Assembly: GCF_902364025.1 (NCBI RefSeq)
Contig: NZ_CABJCG010000004.1
Span: 124,001-188,000 of the forward strand
DNA: 64,000 bases
Source of the DNA: Enterocloster lavalensis
GTDB lineage: Bacteria > Bacillota > Clostridia > Lachnospirales > Lachnospiraceae
Direction: 5' to 3'
Position 1 is the first letter of the stretch. Each line of letters begins with the position of its first letter. The notes under the pieces are model-generated. The model was not told the DNA's origin. It saw nothing but the letters and a program-made list of their open reading frames with translations, and ran no database searches. Below, piece after piece: positions 1-14,338 of the stretch. Made by a program: the position numbers and the translations under genes.

Positions 1-2436
1 CAGAAGCTTATCGGCAGGCGCTGCGCCCTCTCCCGGCTGCTTTGCAACCACCACATATAACTGGTTTGACTCCAGCCCGCCGAGTACGGCACGCGGTGAG
101 GCTCCGGAAGGCATAACCCAGCCGTCTTCATCCGCACCCGGAACGTCCATCACATCCCCTTCTATATTGAGAATCGCATACATGGTCCCGGACTTTGCAG
201 GCTCAACCACCACCTGCTTCATACCGGCCCCGTCGTCCTGAACATCGTAGTTGCTTCCGAGAGCCGGTACCGTCACTCGCGTCGGCGGACTGAAGGCATC
301 CGGATCCAGATTCTCCGGAAGGATCACTCCCGCAGCCGGGTTGGCGTTCATTTTCAGCTCATAGACATAGTAGCTGGTACATGGATTCAATCCGGTAAAT
401 CCGGTATTCCTTAACTGGCTTCCCAGCTTGGTGTCAATCACCTTGAAATCCATATCCGTCAATGCGTATCTGCGGTTTTCGTTGGCGCCTGACACGTTCA
501 CCTTACCGCTTCCATCGCTGACTATGGTTCCCTGGGCATCCGGCATTGTCAGGATAGTATCATCCTCCAGTCCGATGGGGACAAACCGGGCCGTATAGGT
601 CTGGTTCGCATTGATTGTCTGCGAACTCTGCATCCTGTTCCCATTTTCGTCAAACCAGCCGTCAAACCTGTAGAAATTATCGGGATGGGTACTGGGAAGC
701 GTGAGGGACGACCAGGATGTCCCTATCTCGATATGGCTTGTCTTGCTACCCTCTATGGTGCCATGAGGCCCGGAAACAAATTTCAGATCAAACCATTCGC
801 CCTGAGTCTCCTCAAAACTCGCAAATAATTTGATGGAGGCGTTGATTACCGTGTCGTCCGCCAGCCTCGGTCCTGTTTTATTGCTTCCGTTGGATGTGGC
901 CTTGTACCAGCCGTCAAAACTGTAGTGGGCCGACGGCGTGGGCATGAGACCTTCCGTCACCTGGGCCAGGGTGCTGTCCCCGGACTTTTTGACAAACTTA
1001 GGGGCCGTACTCCCGTTAAAAGATCCATTCTGCCCATTGTAGAATTCCACTTTTGCCCAATAATTCTCATCCGCCAGATCTTCGGTGTAGGTGAGGGTCA
1101 CCGTTCCGCCCTGAAGATTGGGGGTCAGGCTCAATTTCTTCGTCTCCTGGTTCAGGGATACATCTAATAAACTGTCCTCCCACTTGATATTCGGAGGATA
1201 AACATAACCCGACAGTTCCTCCACGTCGACTTCCACCGGCACGTTGGGCGGTACAACCCGACTCTCCTCCTCACGCAGGATATTGTGGTGGTTATCCACT
1301 CGTTTCACCCGAAGGATGGTTTCAAAACTGGGGTCCAGCTCATATTTATAGGTAAATGTTATAGCTTGGTTGGGCATCGTTCCAGTAAAATGAAAGTTGG
1401 AAGGATTCAGGTTGACCCCCGCATCCTCTGCGGAGATAACGCCCGCGCCGTCCAGATCCGTGACTCCGCCGACTGTCAATTCCGCTGATTTAACCAGATA
1501 GGAATTAATCACCGCCGGCTCGATCACATAATCGGATTCCACCGGAAGCGCCCTGCTCTCCGGGGCTTTTATCTGGTTGTCGTTCATATCCACATACTGA
1601 ACCGTAATCAGGAATTTTTTCGCCGGATCAGGCTCATAGCGGTAAGCCGCCGTCAGACTGTCGTTGGGCATACTGCCCCTTACCGCGTTGGTAGATGGGT
1701 TGATGCTGGCCCCGCCCTCCGTCATGGTGCCGTGTCCGCTCTCCTCGCCGTATTTGCGGACTTTGTTGTTCTTTAATATCACGGAATTAAACCGGTATCC
1801 CGGTATATCCCTTCTGTAGGTTGCGGATATGGGATTATTGGCCATCTGCGTACTTTCCCAGGACGATTCAAAAAATTTTCTTAAATCGGGATCCTCATAA
1901 TTCTCCGGCCATGCGCTGCTGTCGTCTGCCTCATTCCTCGCCGGGTTAAAATCCCTGTAATGCTCGACCCGGAATGTATAGGGGCTTGTTTCATTTCCCT
2001 TCCACACCGCGTTATAGGTCGTCACGGAATCATACGGGAAGGCATAGGGAAGCGTTTCCACCAGATTGCCGTTGGCTCCATACCAGCCGTCAAACGTATA
2101 GCCGTCCCATGAGATTTCATTAAAATCCGGGAGCTTCGGCCTTACCCCGGAACCAAAGTCATCCATGGGCAGTCCTGAAAAGTTGGCGGAGCTGGTCAGG
2201 GGACTTCCCGCCAGTCCGCTCGCCACAAACAGACTGCCCTCCATGGCCCCGTCCACCGCCACGCTGCTGTAGCTGGAGAGCGGGATTCCCGGCCCGTTCT
2301 GGGGATCGAATCGAATCTTGACCGGATCCCCAAAACTAACCGCATATGCCGGGTATCCCGGGGCGGCCATGGAAAATACCATGGCCGCCGCCAGCATCCC
2401 TGCCAGCTTTGATTTCATATTATACCTCTTTCTCAT
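1..2436 (-). CDS. Giant InlB/MucBP-like repeat surface protein, 3' end outside window
   Basis: An open frame of 812 codons runs from an ATG at 2436 off the left edge, so the C-terminus and any anchor are not visible. The ATG is 6 nt after AGGAGG, and that site overlaps the TAG stop of the preceding gene, which suggests coupled translation. The N-terminus (MRKRYNMKSKLAGMLAAAM, then a small-residue core ending near AYA) is a signal peptide. The body repeats Tyr/Trp-rich beta modules of the InlB B-repeat type (phrases such as FDGWYGANG and FDGWFDENG) and MucBP-like modules (GTMPNQAITFTYKYE). It resembles the neighbouring 2076-residue protein in design. The likely role is an extracellular adhesin or wall protein; ligand unknown. 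It is the last visible gene of the operon behind the invertible segment at 12102-12346. Confidence 0.8.
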   Translation of the reverse strand, partial: MRKRYNMKSKLAGMLAAAMVFSMAAPGYPAYAVSFGDPVKIRFDPQNGPGIPLSSYSSVAVDGAMEGSLFVASGLAGSPLTSSANFSGLPMDDFGSGVRPKLPDFNEISWDGYTFDGWYGANGNLVETLPYAFPYDSVTTYNAVWKGNETSPYTFRVEHYRDFNPARNEADDSSAWPENYEDPDLRKFFESSWESTQMANNPISATYRRDIPGYRFNSVILKNNKVRKYGEESGHGTMTEGGASINPSTNAVRGSMPNDSLTAAYRYEPDPAKKFLITVQYVDMNDNQIKAPESRALPVESDYVIEPAVINSYLVKSAELTVGGVTDLDGAGVISAEDAGVNLNPSNFHFTGTMPNQAITFTYKYELDPSFETILRVKRVDNHHNILREEESRVVPPNVPVEVDVEELSGYVYPPNIKWEDSLLDVSLNQETKKLSLTPNLQGGTVTLTYTEDLADENYWAKVEFYNGQNGSFNGSTAPKFVKKSGDSTLAQVTEGLMPTPSAHYSFDGWYKATSNGSNKTGPRLADDTVINASIKLFASFEETQGEWFDLKFVSGPHGTIEGSKTSHIEIGTSWSSLTLPSTHPDNFYRFDGWFDENGNRMQSSQTINANQTYTARFVPIGLEDDTILTMPDAQGTIVSDGSGKVNVSGANENRRYALTDMDFKVIDTKLGSQLRNTGFTGLNPCTSYYVYELKMNANPAAGVILPENLDPDAFSPPTRVTVPALGSNYDVQDDGAGMKQVVVEPAKSGTMYAILNIEGDVMDVPGADEDGWVMPSGASPRAVLGGLESNQLYVVVAKQPGEGAAPADKLL

Positions 2437-2446
2437 CCGGTTCCTC

Positions 2447-5400
2447 CTACTGAATCCACGCACCGTCGGCACCTGTCCGGTATCCGTCTGGTGTTACTTC
2501 ATTCTGATACATTGCGCCCAATGGGCGTCCTGCGCCTCCTCCATAGGTCCACCGCTGTCTGACAGGGTCGTAGGCATATACGCCGGCTCCCACCGGGGAG
2601 AAGTAGTACCATTTCCCGTCTATATTCCTCCAGCCCAGGGCCATCGCGCCGCTGACCGGATCCAGATAATACCAGTTGTTGTCCGCCGTATCCAATCTCC
2701 AGCCTGTGACCATTTTTCCGTAAGGTAATTCTGTCTCCGTGTTGCAGTAATACCAGTTGCCCGCCTTATCGCAGATCCAGCCGCTCTGCATGATACCCTT
2801 TTCGTCAAAGTAATACCAGCCGCTGTCTTCCGGTCTGGCTCCCTCCGGGTAAGTCAGTCTGGCCCACATGTCGTTCAGGCGCATTCCTCCGTTGAGCACG
2901 AAGCTCATCTGCTTCTCGCCGGACGGTCCGACGCTCTCCTCCCAGTTGCCGTTGGTCCCGATCCGATAGCTCAATGGCGCGGTTCCTGTAAACGGCGTTT
3001 TCTTGCTGCTGCCGCCACCGCCGCCGCCTCCACCGCCGCCTCCCTTACTGCCGCCCTTGTTTCCGCTTTCCTGAAGGTCGTCGTAGTGGTCATACCTGCC
3101 GTCCAGCAGTTCCTTGTAAGGAGCCGTCTTATCCTTCAGCTCGCTGAGAGCTTCCACCAGCTGGTCAATGGTCGCCTTGGGTTCTTCACGGTCCAGGACT
3201 TCCAGCGCCGCCTCAATGTACTCCTTCAGTTTCTTGCTCTCGTTCAGCTTCAGGAAATGGTCGTCGCTTATGCCGATGGCTGCCCGGATCGCTTCCTCCA
3301 GCTCCTTTCGGATATCGTCCAATTCCTTCTCATTGTCCTCATAGTACGCATATACATAGGTCTTGCGTTTTATCTTGCGGTCCGGTTCAAACTCCCGGAA
3401 ACGGTCCTCGCGGTAGCTCCAGCCCAGATAGCTGTACTCCGCCCCTGTCGGGCTGATGAAATAGTCGAGCTGTTCCTCCAGCCCTCCGAACTCCGACTCA
3501 TAATAGGAATCCTCCGGGGATTCTTCCCTTCGCACCTTGAACCAATAGCGGTAAAGATCCGGAGCCGTGTTATTCAGGAAATACACCCGGTACGCGCAGT
3601 TGTACACCATGATGTACCGCCGCCCTTCCGTGGCGGTAAAGGTGAACAGACCGCCCGTTTCCTCCGGTTCATAATCCATCGGCACAAGGCTTACCATTAT
3701 TTCCGTATCTGCATCCCCGCTGATTTCATACAGCTGGTAATCCATCATATCCACATCCTGCCTGCCAAGCTGCACATAGGTCTTAAAGGATGCCTCCGAG
3801 GCGCTTGCCCGGTTTACCTTTCTGCCGTTCACATACCGTTCGATGGACACGTCCAGACCCCAGGCCGCCTTGTAGGCCGCTTCATGGTCCATATCGTAGC
3901 TGCCTCCGGTCTTGATGGCGTTGGATTCCGATGCGCGCACGCTGTTCTTTCTGTAGACTACCTTATAGGTCACGTCCGCATGGTTTACGTCCAGCAGCTC
4001 CCGGTCTGCGTCCGTGGTCAGCTCGTCCTCCAGGTCCGGTATCTCTCCCGGATCCAAAGCCAGCTCCTCGCGGCTGCCTCCCCGTACCTCGTCCACCACG
4101 GTGGCGTTGCTTGGGGTTGCCGCCCGCTCATATACCGCTTCCAGAACCAGGTTCGTATCCGGCATGGTGAAACTGGCTTCCCTGGTATTAATCTTATCTT
4201 CCACCCCTTCAACGGAACCGATGATAAACCTCCAGTGAGAGAAGCGGCGGTTTTCATCGTTGACTGCTTCCGCCTTGATTTTCACCAAATCGCCCTTGTG
4301 GGTCTCCTCATAGCGGTCTTCCCCTACCGGTTCATCCCCCGCGCTTACCACCTCGCCGTTCAAGGTCTCGATGATGTAAGACGGAAGCTCCAGGTCTCCG
4401 CCCGGATCCGTGGTGATGACGCTGCCGTCCTCCCTGCAGCTTTCCGCCGTGATCGAGCTTTGGCCCTTCGGGCGGGCTACCACCGTATACTCCTTGTTAT
4501 AATCAAGACCACTAAAGCTTACGCTTCCCGGATTTCCCGACACGCTCTGCCATCCGCCTGCGCCGGTCTCCGGCGTCGTTACAACACGGCCGCTGTCATC
4601 AAGCACGGCATAGTCCGATTGGGCGTCCGCCGGCCGGATGATCAGCCTCGTTTTACCCTCGTCTTCCTCGTCGTAGAGAATCTTGTAGTTGGTATCCACT
4701 ACCGGCGTCAATACCTCCACGCCGCTGCTTAACGTGCCTTCTGCGGACCCAATCATAGCTCCGGCCTGGACTTTTGTCTGGCCTGTCGCCTCGTACACCA
4801 GATAACGCATGCCGGGATACAGGTCGTCAAATACGGTGCGGCTTGTGAGCAAGTTACCCTTGTTGACTTCCAGCACCTTCCCGTCAAGATCCGTAAGGAT
4901 ATATTTATAACCTTGCGTAGTGCCGAATACCGTGACGCGGCCCTTGCCCTGACTGTTAAGCCCTGCGGCCGGTTCCGGGTCCTTCACCTCCGTGCCGAAG
5001 ATGGCCGGGTCCGGATAGAACTGAATGGTATAGGTCTGACCGTTGACCAGGGACATATCGTCGTCCACAGGTTCGCCCTGTACATACCAGTCGTCCACCA
5101 GATAGTTCACCTCAGGCGTATAAGCCGGAAGGCTGGACGTAATGTCCCCCCATTTCTTGTCAAAGGTGGTGCGCAGGGTCAGGGGTTCCCCTGCGTCGAT
5201 GGAACCGTGGCTGCCTGCTGCAAAATTGATATTAATCCAGGCATCCGGATTCTCCTCAAAATAAGCGGTTATTGTTGCCGGAGCCGTGAACTGGTAATCC
5301 TGGGGCAGGATTGTCTCGCCATTATCCAGATTCCCGTTTCCGTCCGTGTCAATAAACCAACCGCCGAAGCGGTAATAGCCGTTAACCGGCTGGGTCTGCG

Positions 5401-8400
5401 GCATGAGCCGCCGTTCCTTTATGACAGCCAGGGTGTAGGACTGGACCTGCCCTTCCGACGTGCCGTCGTTTAGCAGCACGCTGGCCTTAAAGCTTCCGCC
5501 CGATAATGCCTGCACGTCCTGGGATACATCGCTTCCTCCCTGCAGGGTACCGTTTTCGCCGGGCTCATATGTGATATCTCCCCACAGAGCCGGTATCCTG
5601 TCATGTTTGTACTTAATTGTGACATTGTCATTCGGCATGATTCCGGACCAGTCATTGCTGTTAAACTGGATCTGTGAATCCGCCGGGCTGACCGTATGCG
5701 CCTCCAGGCTGTATCCATATTGCTCCCGGTATACGCCCTGCACATTGCTGTCCGCTTCATAGGGACCTGAATTCTCAGGAGGTATGATGTCCGTTAGGCG
5801 GCTGTCCGCCGTCCCGTTATCTTCATATTTGACCGTTATCTCATATCCCTGGATGGACGACTCATACAGATAGACAAGGCGTACCGGCTGATTGGGCATG
5901 ATGCCGTTAAACACTAAGCTTTCATCAAAATCCCCTCTCACGCCGTTTACCAGGCCGTCTGCCAGTTCGCCCGCCTGATCTCCCAGTTCAAACCGGTAAC
6001 CGGTACACTGATAACCGTAAACCTGGGCCGGCTGGGCCGTGATCTCATTTTCCGGATAGTACAGACCCGACTGGTCTGCGGATACCGTGGTCCCGTTATT
6101 GGTTTTATGCTGGACCTCGAACAGAGACCTGGCATCGGGATCGTCATATCTCACCTTATAGCCGTACCGTATGGTTGCATCCTGTCCCGGCATCTTTCCG
6201 TTAAATGTGCCCGCGCTGTTAAACTGGCCGATTGGCACCGATGTGCCGCTAAAGTTATATTCCGACGGGGTCGTGCTGGAATCATCCAGGCTCCAGGTAT
6301 ATCCCCTGACCGTCTTTTTTTCCTCCAGAATCGGCTCCTCCACGCTATAGGCGCTGTCCAGGGTATTGGTTTCAAACATAATATCCCCTGAGGCATTGGA
6401 GTGCTCTACCGTGTAATTGAATTTGACATTGGGATCCGCCTCAAATATCGCATAGTAGGTTACAGGCAGCTCCGGGTAAACAGCCGGCAGCCTGTCAATA
6501 AACTGCGGGTTGTCCCAGTCGTTTACCGAACTCCAGCCTTTAAATATGTAACCATACCGTGTTGTTGTCGGAAGCAGTGAGTTGACCGGATTCCCGGCAG
6601 TGCCAACCAGCGTCTCCGGTTCCGGCGTCCCTCCGTTGCTGTTGAAAATGATCTGTGATCCGATCTTCTGGTATTCGTAGCTCACCGCCACATCCTGGTT
6701 GGGCATGGTTCCCGTAATCCGGCCGAAGTCCGCCCCGGGCGTCAGGTTTGCCGTCAGGGACGGCGGCGTCCCCTGCTCAATAACCACGCCGGACAGCTCA
6801 TATCCTGTGATGTCCGGTCCGGGCGCAATGTCCACCGGTTCTCCCGACCCCTTGGAGATTGGCGGAATCGGAGCGACGCCGGAGATAGAACCGCCTGTCT
6901 GCGCATCCTTTACGACAAAACTGATCTGAAGGCCGTTTCGTTTGATGACCGCATTTTTATCATTTCCCGCGCCAGCGCCGGACAGATTTTTTGTTCCCAC
7001 TGCCACATACAGGCCGGTGCCGTCGGCTTTTGCCTGATCTGCGAAGAAATTATCCGCAAAGGGGCTTGGGGCCGTATCCACACCGCTCCCCGCAAGTGGC
7101 GACGCGATCTTTATCTCCTGCCCCGCTTCCGTGGAGATTCCTCCCGGCGACGCGGCCGGCTGTCCGGCTGTCGTGACTCCGATCCTCGATGCGTTCAGAT
7201 CGCCTGTCACGGTAATCGTCCGTCCCGTCTCCAGATATATATTGGACTTGGCGCCCGAGGGAGTCGTGTTGTCCTCCACCATCACGTCATTGAGCACATC
7301 AAACCTTCCTGTGCTGTTAAAGTAAACAGCGCCCTTGCCCTCCGACAGGTTTCCGGATACCTTGCCATAGTTCATGGACAGGGTTGCGCTTCCCGTCACA
7401 CTGAGCGCGCTTCCCTGGCTGCTGCTGTTCCCATGGCAGTTTTTCAGTTGTGCCCCGCTGTTTATCTCAATCCGGCCGGATGTGGCTGACACAAGAGAAT
7501 CGCCGCTCAGCTTGCCATTGCCGTCCAGCACAAGGTCCGTCAGCTTCAGGGTTGCCCCGGTCACATTAAAGATTGGCCCGGTATAGGAACCGGCGCGCTT
7601 TAACGTCTTGATATAATCCGCATTCTCGTTGGTGGGGTTGCCGTTCCTGTCATAATCCGTACTTGCAATGGTAATATCCTTACTGGAGCCGGAAACCGTA
7701 ATAGGGGCTGTAATCTCCGGATAATCCATGATATAGATATATCCCTTCTTGTTCCCAATCTGCCCCATGGCGTATTCAATGGTTTTAAAGGGGCTGCTGT
7801 AGGTGCCGTCGGCAGCATTTGAATCCACTCCGGATGCGGATACATAGTACGATGTATCCCGGATTGCAAACGCCACCCTTTTGTGGACCGTTTCATATGG
7901 ATGGAGCTGGAAATGCCAGGAATAGGCCATGCCTGAGTCATCGCTGCTCAGGGAATCGCCGCCGCCTTCATTAAACACATTCTCCCCCCAGAACTTATAA
8001 TACCCAATCCATCTCGTGGTTGTGGGCGTAACGCCAAGGCTGCTGTCATTGGTGATACAGTCAAAGGTGGTTTTCACATATTGGTTTACCATATGGAAAC
8101 CGCGGTTATTTTTATAAATCGTAGCATTGTCATCTTCTTTGCTGCCGCCGATCATAACGTCCGTACCTGTTCCAAGTTTGACGGTTCTGCCTTGGGCGCC
8201 TCCCTGTCCGGTCTTGTCGTAGACGTAATAATCCACAAACACATATTTATTGTCCGGGCTTGGCGAAAGGGCGATCTTAAGCTCGATTCCCATATTGGTC
8301 AAATCTTCCACCGCGCCGTTGGCGCTTCCGTTGGCTTTATATTTTGCGCCGCCTTCTACCTGGATATAGGTGGTGTATCCCTGCCAGTCAAAGGTGGTCT

Positions 8401-8677
8401 TAATCCCGCTTTTGGAATATCCGGTCTGCCCTGCCTGCAGGCCGCACAGGTCGAAACGGTAAGAGTTTCCGCTGGGAGACTCCCCTGTCCCGCCTCTGGG
8501 GCCAATCCACGCGTAGGCCGTACCCTCGCTGGCTCCATTTCCCAGATTCTCATTGGGAAGCTCCGTGGAGGCATATGCGACCACCGCCAGCTGCGACGTA
8601 CCCAGGCCCACGGTCAGACAAATTGTTAAAATCAAGGAAACAAAACGTTTCCACAACTGATATCGTTCCTTATTCAT
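2447..8677 (-). CDS. 2076-residue secreted surface protein with C-terminal wall-binding repeats
   Basis: This protein has a signal peptide (about residues 1-36, ending VVAYA), then a region around 290-560 with parallel beta-helix character (short repeats such as SGSATLSMNYGKVSGN). A long series of InlB B-repeat and MucBP-like modules follows to about 1500, then a charged helical stretch near 1800-1880, an 11-glycine linker, and 3-4 choline-binding-type repeats at the C-terminus (GWYYFDEKGIMQSGW, NWYYLDPVSGAMALGW). The end repeats should hold it non-covalently to wall polymers; no LPXTG motif is seen. The next gene in the operon starts 10 bp downstream. The likely role is adhesion or surface display; the ligand cannot be read from sequence. 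Its long antisense frames are shadows of this gene. Confidence 0.88.
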   Translation of the reverse strand: MNKERYQLWKRFVSLILTICLTVGLGTSQLAVVAYASTELPNENLGNGASEGTAYAWIGPRGGTGESPSGNSYRFDLCGLQAGQTGYSKSGIKTTFDWQGYTTYIQVEGGAKYKANGSANGAVEDLTNMGIELKIALSPSPDNKYVFVDYYVYDKTGQGGAQGRTVKLGTGTDVMIGGSKEDDNATIYKNNRGFHMVNQYVKTTFDCITNDSSLGVTPTTTRWIGYYKFWGENVFNEGGGDSLSSDDSGMAYSWHFQLHPYETVHKRVAFAIRDTSYYVSASGVDSNAADGTYSSPFKTIEYAMGQIGNKKGYIYIMDYPEITAPITVSGSSKDITIASTDYDRNGNPTNENADYIKTLKRAGSYTGPIFNVTGATLKLTDLVLDGNGKLSGDSLVSATSGRIEINSGAQLKNCHGNSSSQGSALSVTGSATLSMNYGKVSGNLSEGKGAVYFNSTGRFDVLNDVMVEDNTTPSGAKSNIYLETGRTITVTGDLNASRIGVTTAGQPAASPGGISTEAGQEIKIASPLAGSGVDTAPSPFADNFFADQAKADGTGLYVAVGTKNLSGAGAGNDKNAVIKRNGLQISFVVKDAQTGGSISGVAPIPPISKGSGEPVDIAPGPDITGYELSGVVIEQGTPPSLTANLTPGADFGRITGTMPNQDVAVSYEYQKIGSQIIFNSNGGTPEPETLVGTAGNPVNSLLPTTTRYGYIFKGWSSVNDWDNPQFIDRLPAVYPELPVTYYAIFEADPNVKFNYTVEHSNASGDIMFETNTLDSAYSVEEPILEEKKTVRGYTWSLDDSSTTPSEYNFSGTSVPIGQFNSAGTFNGKMPGQDATIRYGYKVRYDDPDARSLFEVQHKTNNGTTVSADQSGLYYPENEITAQPAQVYGYQCTGYRFELGDQAGELADGLVNGVRGDFDESLVFNGIMPNQPVRLVYLYESSIQGYEITVKYEDNGTADSRLTDIIPPENSGPYEADSNVQGVYREQYGYSLEAHTVSPADSQIQFNSNDWSGIMPNDNVTIKYKHDRIPALWGDITYEPGENGTLQGGSDVSQDVQALSGGSFKASVLLNDGTSEGQVQSYTLAVIKERRLMPQTQPVNGYYRFGGWFIDTDGNGNLDNGETILPQDYQFTAPATITAYFEENPDAWININFAAGSHGSIDAGEPLTLRTTFDKKWGDITSSLPAYTPEVNYLVDDWYVQGEPVDDDMSLVNGQTYTIQFYPDPAIFGTEVKDPEPAAGLNSQGKGRVTVFGTTQGYKYILTDLDGKVLEVNKGNLLTSRTVFDDLYPGMRYLVYEATGQTKVQAGAMIGSAEGTLSSGVEVLTPVVDTNYKILYDEEDEGKTRLIIRPADAQSDYAVLDDSGRVVTTPETGAGGWQSVSGNPGSVSFSGLDYNKEYTVVARPKGQSSITAESCREDGSVITTDPGGDLELPSYIIETLNGEVVSAGDEPVGEDRYEETHKGDLVKIKAEAVNDENRRFSHWRFIIGSVEGVEDKINTREASFTMPDTNLVLEAVYERAATPSNATVVDEVRGGSREELALDPGEIPDLEDELTTDADRELLDVNHADVTYKVVYRKNSVRASESNAIKTGGSYDMDHEAAYKAAWGLDVSIERYVNGRKVNRASASEASFKTYVQLGRQDVDMMDYQLYEISGDADTEIMVSLVPMDYEPEETGGLFTFTATEGRRYIMVYNCAYRVYFLNNTAPDLYRYWFKVRREESPEDSYYESEFGGLEEQLDYFISPTGAEYSYLGWSYREDRFREFEPDRKIKRKTYVYAYYEDNEKELDDIRKELEEAIRAAIGISDDHFLKLNESKKLKEYIEAALEVLDREEPKATIDQLVEALSELKDKTAPYKELLDGRYDHYDDLQESGNKGGSKGGGGGGGGGGGSSKKTPFTGTAPLSYRIGTNGNWEESVGPSGEKQMSFVLNGGMRLNDMWARLTYPEGARPEDSGWYYFDEKGIMQSGWICDKAGNWYYCNTETELPYGKMVTGWRLDTADNNWYYLDPVSGAMALGWRNIDGKWYYFSPVGAGVYAYDPVRQRWTYGGGAGRPLGAMYQNEVTPDGYRTGADGAWIQ

Positions 8678-8698
8678 TCTTCACACCGCCTCCTAAAA

Positions 8699-10339
8699 TT
8701 AAAAATTCAAGCGTTCTTCCTCCGGCAAGCCGTCCAGCAACGGTTCCATATCGCTTCCGACAATCAGGCCGCCTGCATATTTATCCTCCTTGTTATCCGA
8801 ATCATAATGATAGAATCCGGTTCCTTCTTCCCCCTTATACCACCTCGGTTTAAACTCGTCGTCCACCCTGGCTGCGAATCGGTTATTTATGATAATGAGC
8901 CATCCTCCGTCTTTATCCCTGACAACCTTTTTCTTTCCGGTGACGGTCTTTCCGCTGGCGTTGACCACGCGATAGGAATCATCGTCCTCGCGGACCACAC
9001 CGTAACCATATTCCTCGTCCGCCTCCAGCCTAAGCCCGTTTATATAGTAGGAATCCTTTACCTTCTTTAAGCGGTTGCGGCTTCCATAGGCGACGCCGTC
9101 GCTTTTAAACCCAAAGGTGTACACCCCGTCCTCCAGTTCAATCTCCAGTTCTTTTCCGGTCTGCATGGAGCCGTCGTTCAACTCGTCCGGGGAGAAGAAA
9201 TAAAGGTCCGCCTTCTCGATACCGTATATATTTCCCTCTATAAAATCCTCCGATGACCACGCGTCCATATCGTACTGGGCAACAAATGTGCTGCGGGTAT
9301 CAAAGAGCACAAATCCGGTCTGCATCCTGCCCAATCCGTCAAAGGCATAATACCGGCCGTTGACTTTCTTTATTTTATTCTGATAGACCTCGCCATTCTG
9401 GTCCGTGCGCCACCAGCTGTACTCCCCGTCGTTGAAGTCGTCCTGAATCAGATTGTCCGACGGATACATCCAGAGCCAGACGTTTCTCTGAAGGCTTCCG
9501 CCATCGTACCCCGCGTAGAACCGGGTGGGTATATCGCTGGTGGGATTGCTTTTATCCGCATTGCTGACGCTTGCCACCTGGGTCCACCACGGTAGCATGA
9601 TGCCATACTCGTCAAAGCCGTATGTGCCGCCGCCAATATTTCTTTGGATCAGGCGGTCCCCATTGCTTTTTACCTTTTTGGACTGGTTGTTGAAATACAG
9701 CCACACCTGGTCATATTCATCATAATTCCTGCCGCTGATATCGCTGGACAGCTCCTCCAGCCCCTTTAACTCCAGCTGCGAATAGTCCAGCCAGCTCTCT
9801 GTCTTTAACGCGCCGTCCTCATCCGCATAGTACACGCCGTCCTCCAGCGGATTGTCATCCTCGCCCAGGGGATTGCCGTCCTCGTCAAACCATCCGGTCA
9901 GCATAAGGCCGCTCTCATCAAATATGTAACGCCTGCCGTCCACGGTCCTCTTAAAAGAGGAGTCGGTGCCGCGGTACGCCTTACCGTTTCCACCAAAGTA
10001 ATACCACCCGGCCTCATGGCCGTTTCCGTCCGCCTCATCCACCAGAACCCATGTATTTTCAGCCCGTGCTCCATCCTCAAACACATAATACAAACTGTTC
10101 CCCTGTTCAATGAAGCAATCTTTCACCATAATCCCCTGATCGCCCAGATAGAACCAGGAGTCCCTGGACTGCTTCCAGGTATTTTTCAGCGGGTTGTCAT
10201 CTTCATCTAAATATTTCCACTCCTCGCCATCGCTCATCCATCCTTCAACCGCATAGGCAGTCATCGGCTGGAACCTGGCCGGCGCAAGCGCCGTAATGAC
10301 CAGCGCACCGGCAAAAATCATGATTCTCCTTTTCTTCAT
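8699..10339 (-). CDS. Secreted choline-binding-type wall repeat protein
   Basis: This 546-residue protein has a signal peptide (MKKRRIMIFAGALVITALAP, cleaved near TAYA) followed almost entirely by degenerate cell-wall-binding repeats of the W-x-Y-x-D/G type (EEWKYLDEDDNPLKNTW, GWYYFGGNGKAYRG, GRYYAFDGLGRMQTGF). Such repeats bind choline or teichoic-acid-like wall polymers in Firmicutes. No catalytic domain is recognisable, so it may be a structural wall protein or scaffold. It lies 21 bp upstream of the 2076-residue gene and about 60 bp downstream of the 3D-domain gene, on the same strand, and probably shares their transcript. The acidic stretches (DEDD, EDDD) are unusual for an adhesin and more like a spacer. 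Confidence 0.8.
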   Translation of the reverse strand: MKKRRIMIFAGALVITALAPARFQPMTAYAVEGWMSDGEEWKYLDEDDNPLKNTWKQSRDSWFYLGDQGIMVKDCFIEQGNSLYYVFEDGARAENTWVLVDEADGNGHEAGWYYFGGNGKAYRGTDSSFKRTVDGRRYIFDESGLMLTGWFDEDGNPLGEDDNPLEDGVYYADEDGALKTESWLDYSQLELKGLEELSSDISGRNYDEYDQVWLYFNNQSKKVKSNGDRLIQRNIGGGTYGFDEYGIMLPWWTQVASVSNADKSNPTSDIPTRFYAGYDGGSLQRNVWLWMYPSDNLIQDDFNDGEYSWWRTDQNGEVYQNKIKKVNGRYYAFDGLGRMQTGFVLFDTRSTFVAQYDMDAWSSEDFIEGNIYGIEKADLYFFSPDELNDGSMQTGKELEIELEDGVYTFGFKSDGVAYGSRNRLKKVKDSYYINGLRLEADEEYGYGVVREDDDSYRVVNASGKTVTGKKKVVRDKDGGWLIIINNRFAARVDDEFKPRWYKGEEGTGFYHYDSDNKEDKYAGGLIVGSDMEPLLDGLPEEERLNF

Positions 10340-10400
10340 CCTACTGTCCTTCCAATCCTTATTTAAAATATTTATGTTGAACCCTTTATCAGGGATAAAT

Positions 10401-11255
10401 CTACTCCTCTAAATACACATACTTTTCTTTCCTGCCGTACCGGACCGCCTCTTCGTGGGTATCAAAGTAGATATCCAGCCGGTTTCCCTTTATGGCCTTT
10501 CCGGTATCCTCCACCACGTAAGACACGCCGTCAATCACAATCCGGGTGCCCAGCGGAATCACGGACGGGTCTGCGGCAATGGTATGGGCCGCCTTGGGCA
10601 CGGTTTCCGACTTGGTCAGTTTCTCCTCCTTCTCCCCACAGCACAGCGAGCAGCTGCAATAGCCCGTGACCTGGAACTCCCCCAGATAGTCCGCTCCTTC
10701 TAAAGGCCCGTCGGAATGTCTGTACACAGCGCAGGTTTTCCGGCCAAACTGCAGCGCCTCCTCATCGCTGTCAAAATAAATCCGCAGCTTTTCCCTGGCG
10801 GCCTCATCCACCTTATCCTCAATCACATAGGTATCTCCATCAATCAGCACCGTGTCCCCTATTTTGAAAACAGACAGCATACCGGCCGCCGTACGCCCTT
10901 TCACAGGGAGCTCACCGGAGTACGTCAGATCCTTTCCATCCGAACTGTAGGCAGCCACCTCCAGCTCTCCCAAATAGGTGAACTCCGGCTGGGATGACGC
11001 CTGGACCACCGCCTCGGACGGGCTTACGTCCAGCGGTTCCACCGTATACGGATTGTCAGGAGTTCCGGCTCCCCTCAGCTCCGTGTGGGCCTGTTCTGCA
11101 GCCGCCGTATGGAGCTGGAACAATGTAAATCCTGCCGCCAGGACAGTGAGACCGCAGCCAAAGAGAAACGGCCTCAGAAATTTCCTCATCCTGTTATGCC
11201 TTAGACAGGATTTACGGAATTCCGTCATCCTGTATCCATGAAGATTATTCGTCAT
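10401..11255 (-). CDS. 3D-domain protein, signal-anchored
   Basis: The C-terminal part (CSCSLCCGEKEEKLTKS ... HTIAADPSVIPLGTRIVIDG ... VEDTGKAIKGNRLDIYFDTHEEA) is a canonical 3D domain, the MltA-related double-psi barrel with conserved aspartates found in clostridial wall enzymes of the YocH/YabE type. A second, degenerate 3D-like module precedes it (AAYSSDGKDLTYSGELP ... DGDTYVIEDKVDE ... LRIYFDSDEEALQFGRK). An N-terminal hydrophobic helix (FLFGCGLTVLAAGFTLFQL) is a signal peptide or anchor. The expected role is peptidoglycan cleavage or binding outside the membrane. I chose the ATG at 11255, behind GGGGGAAGGG. A GTG at 11276 and ATG at 11273 overlap the upstream stop codon and remain possible; if used they imply translational coupling to the transglutaminase gene. 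Confidence 0.8.
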   Translation of the reverse strand: MTNNLHGYRMTEFRKSCLRHNRMRKFLRPFLFGCGLTVLAAGFTLFQLHTAAAEQAHTELRGAGTPDNPYTVEPLDVSPSEAVVQASSQPEFTYLGELEVAAYSSDGKDLTYSGELPVKGRTAAGMLSVFKIGDTVLIDGDTYVIEDKVDEAAREKLRIYFDSDEEALQFGRKTCAVYRHSDGPLEGADYLGEFQVTGYCSCSLCCGEKEEKLTKSETVPKAAHTIAADPSVIPLGTRIVIDGVSYVVEDTGKAIKGNRLDIYFDTHEEAVRYGRKEKYVYLEE

Positions 11256-11272
11256 ACCCTTCCCCCTGAGCA

Positions 11273-12067
11273 TCACAAATTATTATGCATAGAATCCGAA
11301 TCCATCTCTTTCTGTGTTAAAAACTTCCAAGAGCTGCTTCCTAAACTCTTATCCCAGGTAATATCACAGTATCTCCACTCCCCGTCAATCCAGGTTCGGT
11401 TCCACGCATGGTTTCCGGCGTACACAGGTTCACATACGAGGCCCGCGTCCCTGCACAGCATCAGATAGGCGGATACATATCCCCAGCACACAGAGCTGCC
11501 GTTTATGACCGCGTCATAAACGGTCCTGTTCTCCAGCGTCTGGTCATAGGAGACATTCTCATAGACCCAATGATAAAAATATTCGGCCTTCTCCCTGTCC
11601 CCCAATGTCTGACAGGCCTTCACCACATCAGAGAGCCTGTCCTGCACCTGCCGGTGTTCCGACACCGCCCTGTCCGGATTCTCACAGGAAATGTAGACGG
11701 CATACTCCCCATTTTCATCTGATGAATACAGCGTCACCTCCTCTTTCCCCAGATATATGTACCGGTAATAATATCTGCCGAAGGAAAATACCTCCTCCTC
11801 AGACGCAAAAACGAGATCGGTTTTTATAAGGCCGTCTCCCGCCGTCCCATCTTTGAGTGCATCCATCACAGCTTCCCCAAGCGTTTCAAATTTCTGGTTC
11901 CGGCTGGTCATCTGACTGGCGGGTTTCCCTCTCAGGGCCGTCTGCCCAACTGCTGCTTCCGGCTGCTGCATCGCAAATAAAGTTCCTTCAAATGGAATAT
12001 TCATAACAAATAAAAAGGCAAAAAAAGGCGGAAAAATCTTGATTTTTTGATTTTTTATCCCTCCCAT
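11273..12067 (-). CDS. Secreted transglutaminase-like protein, first gene of the switch-controlled operon
   Basis: This 264-residue protein has a hydrophobic N-terminal segment (about 10-32). Its transglutaminase core has the Cys-His-Asp triad visible as C194 (SSVCWGYVSAYLMLC), H220 (AGNHAWNRTWIDG) and D235 (YCDITWD). Bacterial members are usually cysteine proteases or amidases acting on the wall or on surface proteins. Here it may process or cross-link the large surface proteins made from the same operon (inference). It is the first gene after the invertible segment: the left 26-bp inverted repeat (12076-12101) ends 9 bp upstream of the ATG. The start site is uncertain because no Shine-Dalgarno sequence precedes this ATG; GGGAGGG lies just inside the frame. 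Confidence 0.8.
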   Translation of the reverse strand: MGGIKNQKIKIFPPFFAFLFVMNIPFEGTLFAMQQPEAAVGQTALRGKPASQMTSRNQKFETLGEAVMDALKDGTAGDGLIKTDLVFASEEEVFSFGRYYYRYIYLGKEEVTLYSSDENGEYAVYISCENPDRAVSEHRQVQDRLSDVVKACQTLGDREKAEYFYHWVYENVSYDQTLENRTVYDAVINGSSVCWGYVSAYLMLCRDAGLVCEPVYAGNHAWNRTWIDGEWRYCDITWDKSLGSSSWKFLTQKEMDSDSMHNNL

Positions 12068-12075
12068 CCCGTTTT

Positions 12076-12372
12076 TACAACTGAATATTTCTTTTGTTGT
12101 AATTAAAAACGGCCGAAAGGCTGAAAAAATGGGGTAATTACGGATTACGGGAAATTTTAGAAGAGTTCATTGAGAAACGCGAGAGAAAATAAATAACAAA
12201 TAATCTGCCAAAATAGTCGAACTGGTTTAATTTGCAACCCAGTTTGCTTACTGTACTCTTTTTTATCGAATAATTTTCAAAAATATGTAGAATTTTGTCA
12301 ATGAATGTAGTATACTTTTTTTAAATCTGTCAGGGGTATCCTATCGTACAACAAAAGAAATATTCAGTTGTA
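12076..12372. repeat. Invertible DNA segment (inverton) with perfect 26-bp inverted repeats
   Basis: The 26 bases at 12076-12101 (starting TACAACTGAATATTTC) are the exact reverse complement of 12347-12372. Between them lies an AT-rich 245-bp segment (12102-12346) with no gene. The right repeat sits inside the last codons of the adjacent tyrosine recombinase gene, and the left repeat lies just upstream of the surface operon. This is the layout of site-specific promoter inversion switches. The segment contains a leftward promoter (consensus -35 at 12301-12296). Just before the left repeat, reading leftward, is a weak GCC-TTTC-GGC hairpin followed by TTTTT that could modulate read-through. Inversion itself is inferred; only one orientation is visible. 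Confidence 0.85.
12273..12301 (-). promoter_or_regulatory. Putative promoter inside the invertible segment, reading toward the surface operon
   Basis: On the minus strand a perfect TTGACA (12301-12296) is followed after 17 bp by GAAAAT (12278-12273, 4 of 6 matches to the -10 consensus). It would start a transcript about 200 nt upstream of the transglutaminase gene. In the opposite orientation it would point into the antisense strand of the recombinase gene, so flipping should switch the operon off. The -10 is weak, so an additional factor may be needed. Confidence 0.55.
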
Positions 12373-13226
12373 TCCTGCACTAACAGTTTCATTTTTTCCA
12401 GCTGCAATCTGTGCTGACTTCCACTTTCCTTTGTATAAATTCTGGTCGTGTTAATGTCCCTGTGTCCCAAAATATCGGCTAATTTCGACAGGTTTTTTTC
12501 TATTTCATAGTAGGTCCTCGCAAAAAGGTGTCTTAGGTTGTGGGGAAATATCTTTTCACTCTTAACGTCGGCTTCCATGCCAAGCGCCTTCATCTCCCTC
12601 CATATATTACTCCGGTCCAACGCCTTTCCGCTTTTTGTGATAAAAATCATTCCCGCGCTGATCTTCTTTTTTGACGCATAGGCCTGAAGAAGCGCACAGA
12701 GCTGTCTGGTCAGCAGCACGGTCCTGATCCTGCCCTTGCACTCGATCTCGGCCTGTCCCTTATGGATAGCCGCCACGGTGATAAACGACAGCTCCGATAC
12801 GCGGATCCCGCTTGCGCAGATGGTCTCCAGCACCAGGGCCAGCCGTTCATTCCCATTGGCAATCGCTGTTTTTACCAACCGCTTATATTCGTTCTTTGAC
12901 AGCTCCTTCCGCTCCGGGTAAAACGAACTTTTGCTGATTTTTAAAAACTTACTCTCACAGCCGTCCCATCGATAATATTTGAAAAATCCGTTGAGCGCGG
13001 CTATGACGCAGTTGATGGTGACCGGGGTTATGCGCCTTCGCAGGTCTGCTTTCCACAGAAGTACCATCTCCTTGGTAACCGGTTCGTCCCCTGTGTACTC
13101 TTTAAACTGCTTTAAATACTGTCTGTATTTCTTTATGGTCTCGCCGCTTTTTTCACAGCGTTCGAGCCATTGACCATACTCCTCTATCTTCTGATCCGTT
13201 ATGATTCTTTCATTTTTTCGTTTCAT
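12330..13226 (-). CDS. Tyrosine recombinase (probable invertase of the adjacent switch)
   Basis: This 298-residue protein has an N-terminal SAM-like core-binding domain and a C-terminal catalytic domain. All residues of the family are visible: R142 (GIRVSEL), K164 (CKGRIRT), H229 and R232 (PHNLRHLFA), H255 (LGHRD) and nucleophile Y264 (TTRIYTK). I chose the ATG at 13226 because AGGAGG lies 5 nt upstream; a longer frame to 13292 lacks this. The right inverted repeat encodes the residues DTTEYFFCC, so the tail after it is TIGYP now and would become a single Asn followed by TAA after inversion (298 to 294 residues). The enzyme therefore stays intact in both states. No phage genes are nearby, which favours a dedicated DNA invertase over a prophage integrase. 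Confidence 0.88.
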   Translation of the reverse strand: MKRKNERIITDQKIEEYGQWLERCEKSGETIKKYRQYLKQFKEYTGDEPVTKEMVLLWKADLRRRITPVTINCVIAALNGFFKYYRWDGCESKFLKISKSSFYPERKELSKNEYKRLVKTAIANGNERLALVLETICASGIRVSELSFITVAAIHKGQAEIECKGRIRTVLLTRQLCALLQAYASKKKISAGMIFITKSGKALDRSNIWREMKALGMEADVKSEKIFPHNLRHLFARTYYEIEKNLSKLADILGHRDINTTRIYTKESGSQHRLQLEKMKLLVQDTTEYFFCCTIGYP

Positions 13227-13395
13227 TCCAGCCTCCTGTAATGTGTATTTAGATTTAGTCTGCTCTGATGGTAAAAAAACATCCAATTTCAAGCTACAAT
13301 CTAGCGTTTACCCAATAACTATATACGTTTTTAACATTTTGAATGCTAAAAAATCATTAATTTTTTTTAAATAATACTTACGCATTTACAGGCAA

Positions 13396-13429
13396 TAAAA
13401 AAGAGGCCGTTCCAAATGGAACGCGCCTC
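13396..13429 (-). terminator. Intrinsic terminator of the YitT gene
   Basis: On the minus strand GAGGCGCGTTCC-ATTT-GGAACGGCCTC (13429-13403) forms a near-perfect hairpin followed by TTTTTTATT. It ends the yitT transcript about 10 bp after the stop codon and insulates the recombinase gene from it. Confidence 0.88.
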
Positions 13430-13438
13430 CCGCCGTAT

Positions 13439-14338
13439 TTACTCCAACGGCTTGCGGTAAAACCGCCCCACAAACCGCTGGGTCTTTAAAACATTGATAA
13501 TCACGTGCTCATCCACATGACGGATCAGGTGAATGGCATCCGTGGATTCATAGGATGAAAGCACGGTGTTGAGCAGATACATTTTCTTTTTGCTGTACCC
13601 GCCGTAGGCCTCCACACAGGAGATGCCGTGGTGAAAATGATGAATGTAGGCGTCGATCACCTCCGGGCCCTTCACCGTGGTGATCTGAAGGGTCACCTGA
13701 TCGTACCGGTGGTGGAACGAGCCGATCATGCGGGTGGATATAAACTGGAAAATAATGGAATATCCTGCGTACTTCCAACCGAACACGTACCCGTAGATAC
13801 AGTACATCACGGCGTTTCCGAAAAACACCCAGGTCCAGATGGACATGCCCGTCCGGTTGGAGATGTAGAGCGCGATAAAATCCGTGCCGCCGGTGGAAGC
13901 GTTTCCCCGCAGGGCAATCACAATGGAAGCTCCCCAGATCACGCCGCCGAAAATGACGTTCAGCACTTCGTCGTTGAAAATGGGCCGGAAGGTAAACACC
14001 TGCAGAAACAGGCTGCACAGCGCCACCTGGACCAGCGAAAAGGCGGTAAAGCGCAGGCTGATTCCCTTGCAGCACAGGATGGCCACCGGGATGTTGAGCA
14101 GCAGCATGGTCACCTGCATGGGGATATGAAAGCCCCGCAGCTCCCCCAGGCGCTCCACCAGCATGGCTAACCCGGTAAAGCCCCCGGAAATGATCCCGGA
14201 CGGCCTCGCAAATACCTGCAATACATAGGACTGAACCAAAGCGGAGAGAATGACCGCTGACAGTGTGATGGTGTAACGGACTTCTCTCCGGTGCTTTAAT
14301 TGTTCGATATAGTCGCTGATCATACGAATTCGATTCAT
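13439..14338 (-). CDS. YitT family membrane protein (YitT/DUF2179)
   Basis: This 299-residue protein has about five to six hydrophobic segments in the first 200 residues (VILSALVQSYVLQVF, MLLLNIPVAILCC, VIWGASIVIALRG with the family GNASTGGTDFIAL signature). A soluble C-terminal DUF2179 domain follows (QITTVKGPEVIDAYIHHFHHGISCVEAYGGYSKK). The family is common in Firmicutes; the substrate is unknown and a transporter role is only presumed. The start at 14338 follows AGGAG by 8 nt; a longer frame to 14512 overlaps the Rrf2 gene and looks non-coding. It lies 53 bp downstream of the Rrf2 regulator on the same strand and likely shares its promoter. Confidence 0.88.
   Translation of the reverse strand: MNRIRMISDYIEQLKHRREVRYTITLSAVILSALVQSYVLQVFARPSGIISGGFTGLAMLVERLGELRGFHIPMQVTMLLLNIPVAILCCKGISLRFTAFSLVQVALCSLFLQVFTFRPIFNDEVLNVIFGGVIWGASIVIALRGNASTGGTDFIALYISNRTGMSIWTWVFFGNAVMYCIYGYVFGWKYAGYSIIFQFISTRMIGSFHHRYDQVTLQITTVKGPEVIDAYIHHFHHGISCVEAYGGYSKKKMYLLNTVLSSYESTDAIHLIRHVDEHVIINVLKTQRFVGRFYRKPLE

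Follow-up and report, generated by a model that had tools for sequence, protein, structure and literature searches.

The window, a 64-kb stretch of Enterocloster lavalensis DNA, probably carries a self-contained phase switch, in which a tyrosine recombinase inverts an adjacent promoter segment and the assembled state leaves a surface operon OFF. According to the proposed mechanism, the recombinase (12330..13292, minus strand) would recombine two 26-bp sites and thereby invert the putatively invertible segment between them (12102..12346, 245 bp, no strand), which was delimited from the arms found here and in relatives. One main promoter with its −10 element at 12311-12316 would be carried by the segment; in the assembled orientation it would drive transcription towards the recombinase, entering the gene from its 3′ end. 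After inversion the −10 element would lie at 12132-12137 and leftward transcription would cross the operon-side site and enter the transglutaminase/3D/choline-binding operon (ON). Inversion would also remove the antisense promoter from the recombinase gene and swap the last residues of the recombinase, which changed from TIGYP to N when the segment was inverted in silico. Because the site next to the recombinase belongs to the coding sequence of this enzyme, a flip is predicted to change the end of the recombinase, and the orientation of the segment may feed back on recombinase level or activity.

The operon-side site (12076..12101, plus strand) is oriented opposite to the recombinase-side site (12347..12372, minus strand), which lies within the 3′ coding end of the recombinase. 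An earlier note on this DNA had described two perfect 26-bp inverted repeats, and the arms are indeed exact reverse complements with a spacing of 245 bp. By our own arithmetic a perfect 26-bp pair is expected about 5 × 10−7 times by chance in 64 kb, so that the pair was not attributed to chance. The segment between the arms had also been called gene-free, which did not hold, because the recombinase ORF extends to 12330 and includes the right arm as coding sequence. Partial two-fold symmetry (TACAAC...GTTGTA, recognized by eye) was found inside each single arm. Two-fold symmetry is expected of a tyrosine-recombinase core site, and because each arm is itself partly symmetric, the arms were taken as two whole sites in opposite orientation. 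For comparison with inverted-repeat (IR) motifs, the family site sequence is TACAACNNAWTNYYTMTTTTGTTGTA.

The complete tyrosine recombinase gene reported earlier beside the segment was confirmed by a match to PF00589 (2e-26) and by the alignment of the catalytic positions Arg, His-x-x-Arg, His and Tyr with 4a8e. Its ORF was read from a TTG start at 13292; the relatives P0002-P0006 start at the residue corresponding to 13226 in the window. Twenty-one loci with arms reading TACAAC...GTTGTA were picked by eye as the close family, and L026, with a shorter TTTTGTTGTA-type arm, was placed among the other 64 loci. The recombinase-side arm overlaps the recombinase gene in 20 of the 21 close-family loci, the exception being L040, where the recombinase leaves the frame ahead of the arm. 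In 15 of the 20 overlapping loci the arm encodes the terminal octapeptide YNxxxLLL followed by the stop. It is read in a different frame (DTTEYFFCC...) in the window, L031, L032 and L033, and the recombinase reading frame of L034 extends beyond the arm. Inversion alters the length of the recombinase at 5 of the 21 loci (window, L031-L034) and changes nothing at 9; at 7 further loci a residue is altered only if whole arms swap. Members of the wider family have ACATAAT-type arms, and there the site is mostly located just past the recombinase stop. As a side observation, the recombinase proteins P0028, P0079 and P0103 have a chimeric look, combining family members or a family member with another recombinase, which reflects either recombination between paralogues or metagenome assembly errors. 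Three near-identical copies of recombinase end plus site on one scaffold of L042 (10871, 15024 and 18273), one of them running into N, are likely a scaffolding artefact.

The distribution of the repeat pair was analysed by a recombinase search in 61 genomes around the nearest genome, 21 of which gave a match at 1e-30; from a further search of the species genomes, 78 loci were kept. Following the exclusion of 34 loci (L001, L002, L003 and L012 as duplicates, L110-L139 as flank or extended copies), 106 loci were counted, and 10 truncated ones were set aside, leaving 96 testable relatives. An inverted-repeat pair near the recombinase 3′ end was present in 85 of these and absent in 11, and it measured at least 18 bp in 81 of the 85. 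Omission of one member of each of five near-duplicate pairs (98-100% identical) among the 85 gave 80 of 91. Inverted-repeat recombination sites around a short segment, the arrangement of an inverton, are found in the window, and a repeat pair of this kind occurred in 1 of 287 random control stretches of equal length from the same loci. Within the genus, a degenerate form of the 26-bp site was detected in 22 copies in 7 of 17 genomes, exclusively as 11 facing pairs; the reversed-pattern control returned 0. All 11 genus site pairs adjoin a recombinase match, and the gene next to the arms in the window is intact; by this linkage only, the neighbouring recombinase is taken as the enzyme that would act on the sites. 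Sequence comparison places the repeats in a Clostridia-wide family of putative recombinase-linked switches. Cultured organisms with members of the family include [Clostridium] asparagiforme DSM 15981, Hungatella hathewayi DSM 13479 and Clostridiales bacterium 1_7_47_FAA. A single distant relative was found in viral contigs. G013 and other genus genomes contain several related recombinases each, up to 7 at 1e-30, and several independent switches may therefore coexist in one cell.

The direction of the promoter was assessed from conserved elements in the spacers. In the window, the conserved motif AATGTAGTATACT (12304..12316, plus strand) faces the recombinase and includes a −10-like TATACT at 12311-12316, for which TAGAAT at 12288-12293 is a possible −35. 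The close-family pattern, [AT]ATGTAGTAnnnT, ends 24-33 nt from the faced arm; at the 21 loci it is directed towards the recombinase in 19, towards the operon in one with a reversed spacer (L025), and is absent from one (L034), where TATAGT faces the recombinase instead. It was found in 0 of 4200 dinucleotide shuffles, a control that does not correct for the choice of the pattern after the sequences had been viewed. An earlier pattern excluded TATACT and consequently missed the clade of the window; its looser control, on 10500 mononucleotide shuffles, produced 93 hits. The 64 other spacers, of which 59 are distinct, were examined for a perfect TATAAT at the motif distance; it is directed towards the recombinase in 15 of them and towards the operon in 4, compared with about 1.7 each in shuffles. 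With one mismatch allowed the counts were 44 and 15, against about 14 and 15 in shuffles. Because the conserved −10-like element, which we infer to be part of a promoter, faces the recombinase and points away from the operon, the assembled orientation is probably OFF, and the earlier assertion that the promoter faces the operon (ON) is probably incorrect.

The same inversion switch could instead use a leftward promoter, in which case the assembled orientation would be ON, but this is unlikely. The candidate (TTGACA, 17 nt, GAAAAT; 12273..12301, minus strand, with TTGACA at 12301-12296) faces the operon, matches the consensus at 10 of 12 positions and reaches the highest score of a simple sigma-70 matrix in the window (11.47 vs. 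9.74 for the best recombinase-facing site). TTGACA also stands at the same place in all four loci of the window's clade. However, these four are the only ones among the 21 close-family spacers to contain it (0 of the 17 others), the −10 GAAAAT lacks the first T, and the recombinase-facing −10 is the one kept throughout most of the close family. By the same matrix the operon-facing strand scores higher in 8 of 21 loci. As to the leftward TTGACA promoter postulated before, its sequence is present with GAAAAT at 17 nt, but a consensus promoter scan of 11900-13600 yielded 3 promoter-like sites, compared with an average of 3.5 in shuffles. At 12280-12316 of the window, the promoter-like motif occurs together with two TGTAG repeats at a spacing of 20 bp, a combination recognized by eye also in L035, L037 and L004. 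The repeats are similar to half-sites of BlaI/MecI-type operators, and on account of this likeness a repressor may bind there.

To compare the state of the switch between relatives, spacers were aligned in recombinase orientation, and among pairs with matches the best match was same-strand in 111 and opposite-strand in 17. As hairpins yield short opposite-strand matches, weight was placed on long ones only. The spacer of L025 is reversed relative to that of L007 (80% over 142 of 211 nt; the two also share a 52 nt same-strand match at the hairpin), that of L062 against L053 (70% over 155 nt) and that of L096 against L016 and L017 (93% over 59 nt for L017). Further evidence came from the recombinase of L034 ([Clostridium] asparagiforme DSM 15981), which ends in YNAISILLYSEAWAR as assembled and in YNAISILL when inverted. 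The protein P0013 has the same residue at 291 of the 293 positions in the alignment, where a single gap of two residues occurs, and ends exactly at YNAISILL, as predicted for inverted L034. Judged from the sequence, P0013 is good but not final evidence of the inverted state, because no source is recorded for it and the same end could arise by a point mutation. The same short end is found in the chimeric-looking P0103, the long one in its relative P0011. The phase variation by site-specific inversion put forward in the earlier note is well supported by comparison, namely by the exclusively facing site pairs beside recombinase matches in the genus, the repeat-pair frequencies in relatives and controls, and the reversed segments in some relatives.

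Comparison of orientation across relatives gave a divided result, as reversal was seen in L025, L096, L062 and P0013, but no inverted copy was found in the window's own clade, where four of four loci share one orientation. Among the 120 proteins listed, 7 recombinase ends read LGYS or FGYS, like the assembled form of the clade, and the end predicted for its inverted form did not occur; the database was clustered at 90%, and rarer forms may therefore be hidden. This single orientation, together with 1-2 mismatches in the arms of L031, L032 and L033, would fit sites that inverted formerly but no longer do so in the window's clade, leaving the operon in a fixed state. Such a locked switch is improbable, however: the arms of the window are perfect, its recombinase is intact, and arms differing from each other occur in 11 of the 21 close-family loci, always at positions 7-10 from the outer end only, the inner 16 bp agreeing in all 21.

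On the recombinase-sense strand, a strong T-tailed hairpin was found in Lacrimispora-type relatives, where it would shield the operon while OFF. In L025 the T-tailed hairpin is located on the opposite strand compared with L007, as inversion predicts. A hairpin scan of the window spacer found no T-tailed hairpin on the recombinase-sense strand, and a terminator was rejected as the main mechanism there. When four pieces of the window were folded, the z-scores were 0.19, −1.24, −1.27 and −2.62, the last belonging to a short hairpin within 12095-12130. The arrangement of the RecV/cwpV type, with the promoter outside and the terminator inside the segment, was not found in the window. A switch of transcript elongation, by which a terminator in one orientation stops read-through from an upstream promoter, has a precedent in C. 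difficile cwpV as described in the available text of PMC2784873 and would suit the hairpins of the Lacrimispora-type relatives with their reversal between L025 and L007, but is very improbable for the window, with no such hairpin on its recombinase-sense strand and single folds that are unremarkable or weak.

The promoter inversion favoured here would control five closely spaced ORFs to the left of the switch, all on the minus strand and reading away from it. The same-strand operon of five surface genes described earlier was recovered with its domains, the fifth ORF being cut by the window edge. The first gene (11273..12067) encodes a transglutaminase-like, likely secreted protein (PF01841) and is followed by genes for a 3D-domain protein (10401..11276, PF06725), a choline-binding-repeat protein of 546 aa (8699..10339, PF19127), a protein of 2076 aa with choline-binding and InlB-type repeats (2447..8677, PF19127 and PF09479), and the truncated MucBP/InlB-repeat protein (1..2472), whose counterpart in L147 is complete, with an ORF of 1478 aa. 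For the first gene the start (12030-12067) is unsure, as its ATGGGAGGG could overlap the ribosome-binding site; in L031 the match to this protein begins only at residue 41.

The same operon genes stand behind the switch in L031, L032, L033 and L035, as far as these loci reach, and in part in L132 and L133. Elsewhere the switch precedes Tad pilus genes (RcpC/CpaB, T2SSE and T2SSF; L037), a BTAD-domain regulator, a Cna_B giant and camelysin-like proteins (L135) or a SpaA-fold giant (L138); the downstream genes of L134 and L034 are without such domains. From 13441 onwards, the right flank of the window aligns at 94.5% with the nearest genome, G001, no match to window 1-13440 was found in the 19.5 kb of the G001 region compared, and window 7-13290 is colinear with G009 at 86%. 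On these alignments, switch and operon therefore appear to vary jointly, as one block, from one near relative to another. The best matches in G001 reached 69% for the window recombinase and 34% for the 546-aa protein. No description of this operon, or of a recombination site inside the gene of its own recombinase, was found in the titles and abstract openings of the open-licence papers searched.

Like the invertible capsule promoters of Bacteroides (Mpi), the switch would employ promoter inversion for surface products. Mpi is a single recombinase with many distant sites, whereas here every site pair stands next to its own recombinase. E. coli fim (fimS, FimB/FimE) likewise has a short invertible promoter segment that adjoins a tyrosine recombinase gene and precedes a surface operon, but differs in having two recombinases; in the window the site lies within the coding sequence of the recombinase. 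The fim element has 9-bp repeats and 314 bp, according to the portion of text used from PMC8777976. In the portion used from PMC2784873, the orientation of the fim switch is described as changing the fimE transcript: in phase OFF a Rho-dependent terminator shortens the fimE mRNA, and in phase ON a longer, more stable fimE mRNA biases the switch to OFF. By analogy, a fimE-like control of the recombinase by orientation is plausible here. The C. difficile cwpV and flg switches (RecV) share a tyrosine recombinase and surface products, as far as the available parts of PMC7446863, PMC5903667 and PMC2784873 describe them; cwpV has imperfect 21-bp repeats 195 bp apart and differs from the window in that recV is not close to cwpV and in having its promoter outside the invertible element (PMC2784873, same parts).

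Probably the switch of the window belongs to inverton group 139 of Jin et al. 2025, a likeness that comprises the Clostridia host and the nearby tyrosine recombinase, both found in the window. In the text sections of that paper (PMC11892184), group 139 comprises 33 invertons, 32 of them from class Clostridia, with a previously unpublished IR motif and the strongest link to a nearby tyrosine recombinase group, invertase group 35. For its member from Clostridium sp. D5, the coordinates give 26-bp arms 205 bp apart, and orientation shifts over culture passages. If the family of the window is group 139, its flipping has already been shown by reads, and the additions made here would be the overlap of site and gene, the promoter direction, the orientation bias in assemblies and this operon. 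The same text sections hold no mention of the recombinase-gene overlap, the promoter direction or this operon.

The kind of switch is known, and what differs is the position of the flip site within the gene of its own probable recombinase. Tentatively, this may represent a class of switches in Clostridia in which the final codons of the recombinase gene double as its recombination site, so that flips can rewrite the C-terminus and move an antisense promoter on or off the recombinase. Orientation might then set the dose or activity of the recombinase, keep the operon mostly OFF and be readable from the protein in some clades, with the cassette wired to choline-binding proteins, Tad pili, a Cna_B/camelysin-type operon and SpaA-type giants. 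The recombinase C-terminus reports orientation in the window's clade and in [Clostridium] asparagiforme, so that both states can be searched for in protein and assembly data. That assemblies favour the recombinase-facing orientation is a testable statement on the resting state of these operons, and if orientation feeds back on the recombinase, the switch would be an independent analogue of fimE control. Taken as a family, the loci point to a modular phase-variation cassette that is widespread in gut Clostridia and coupled to several kinds of surface genes.
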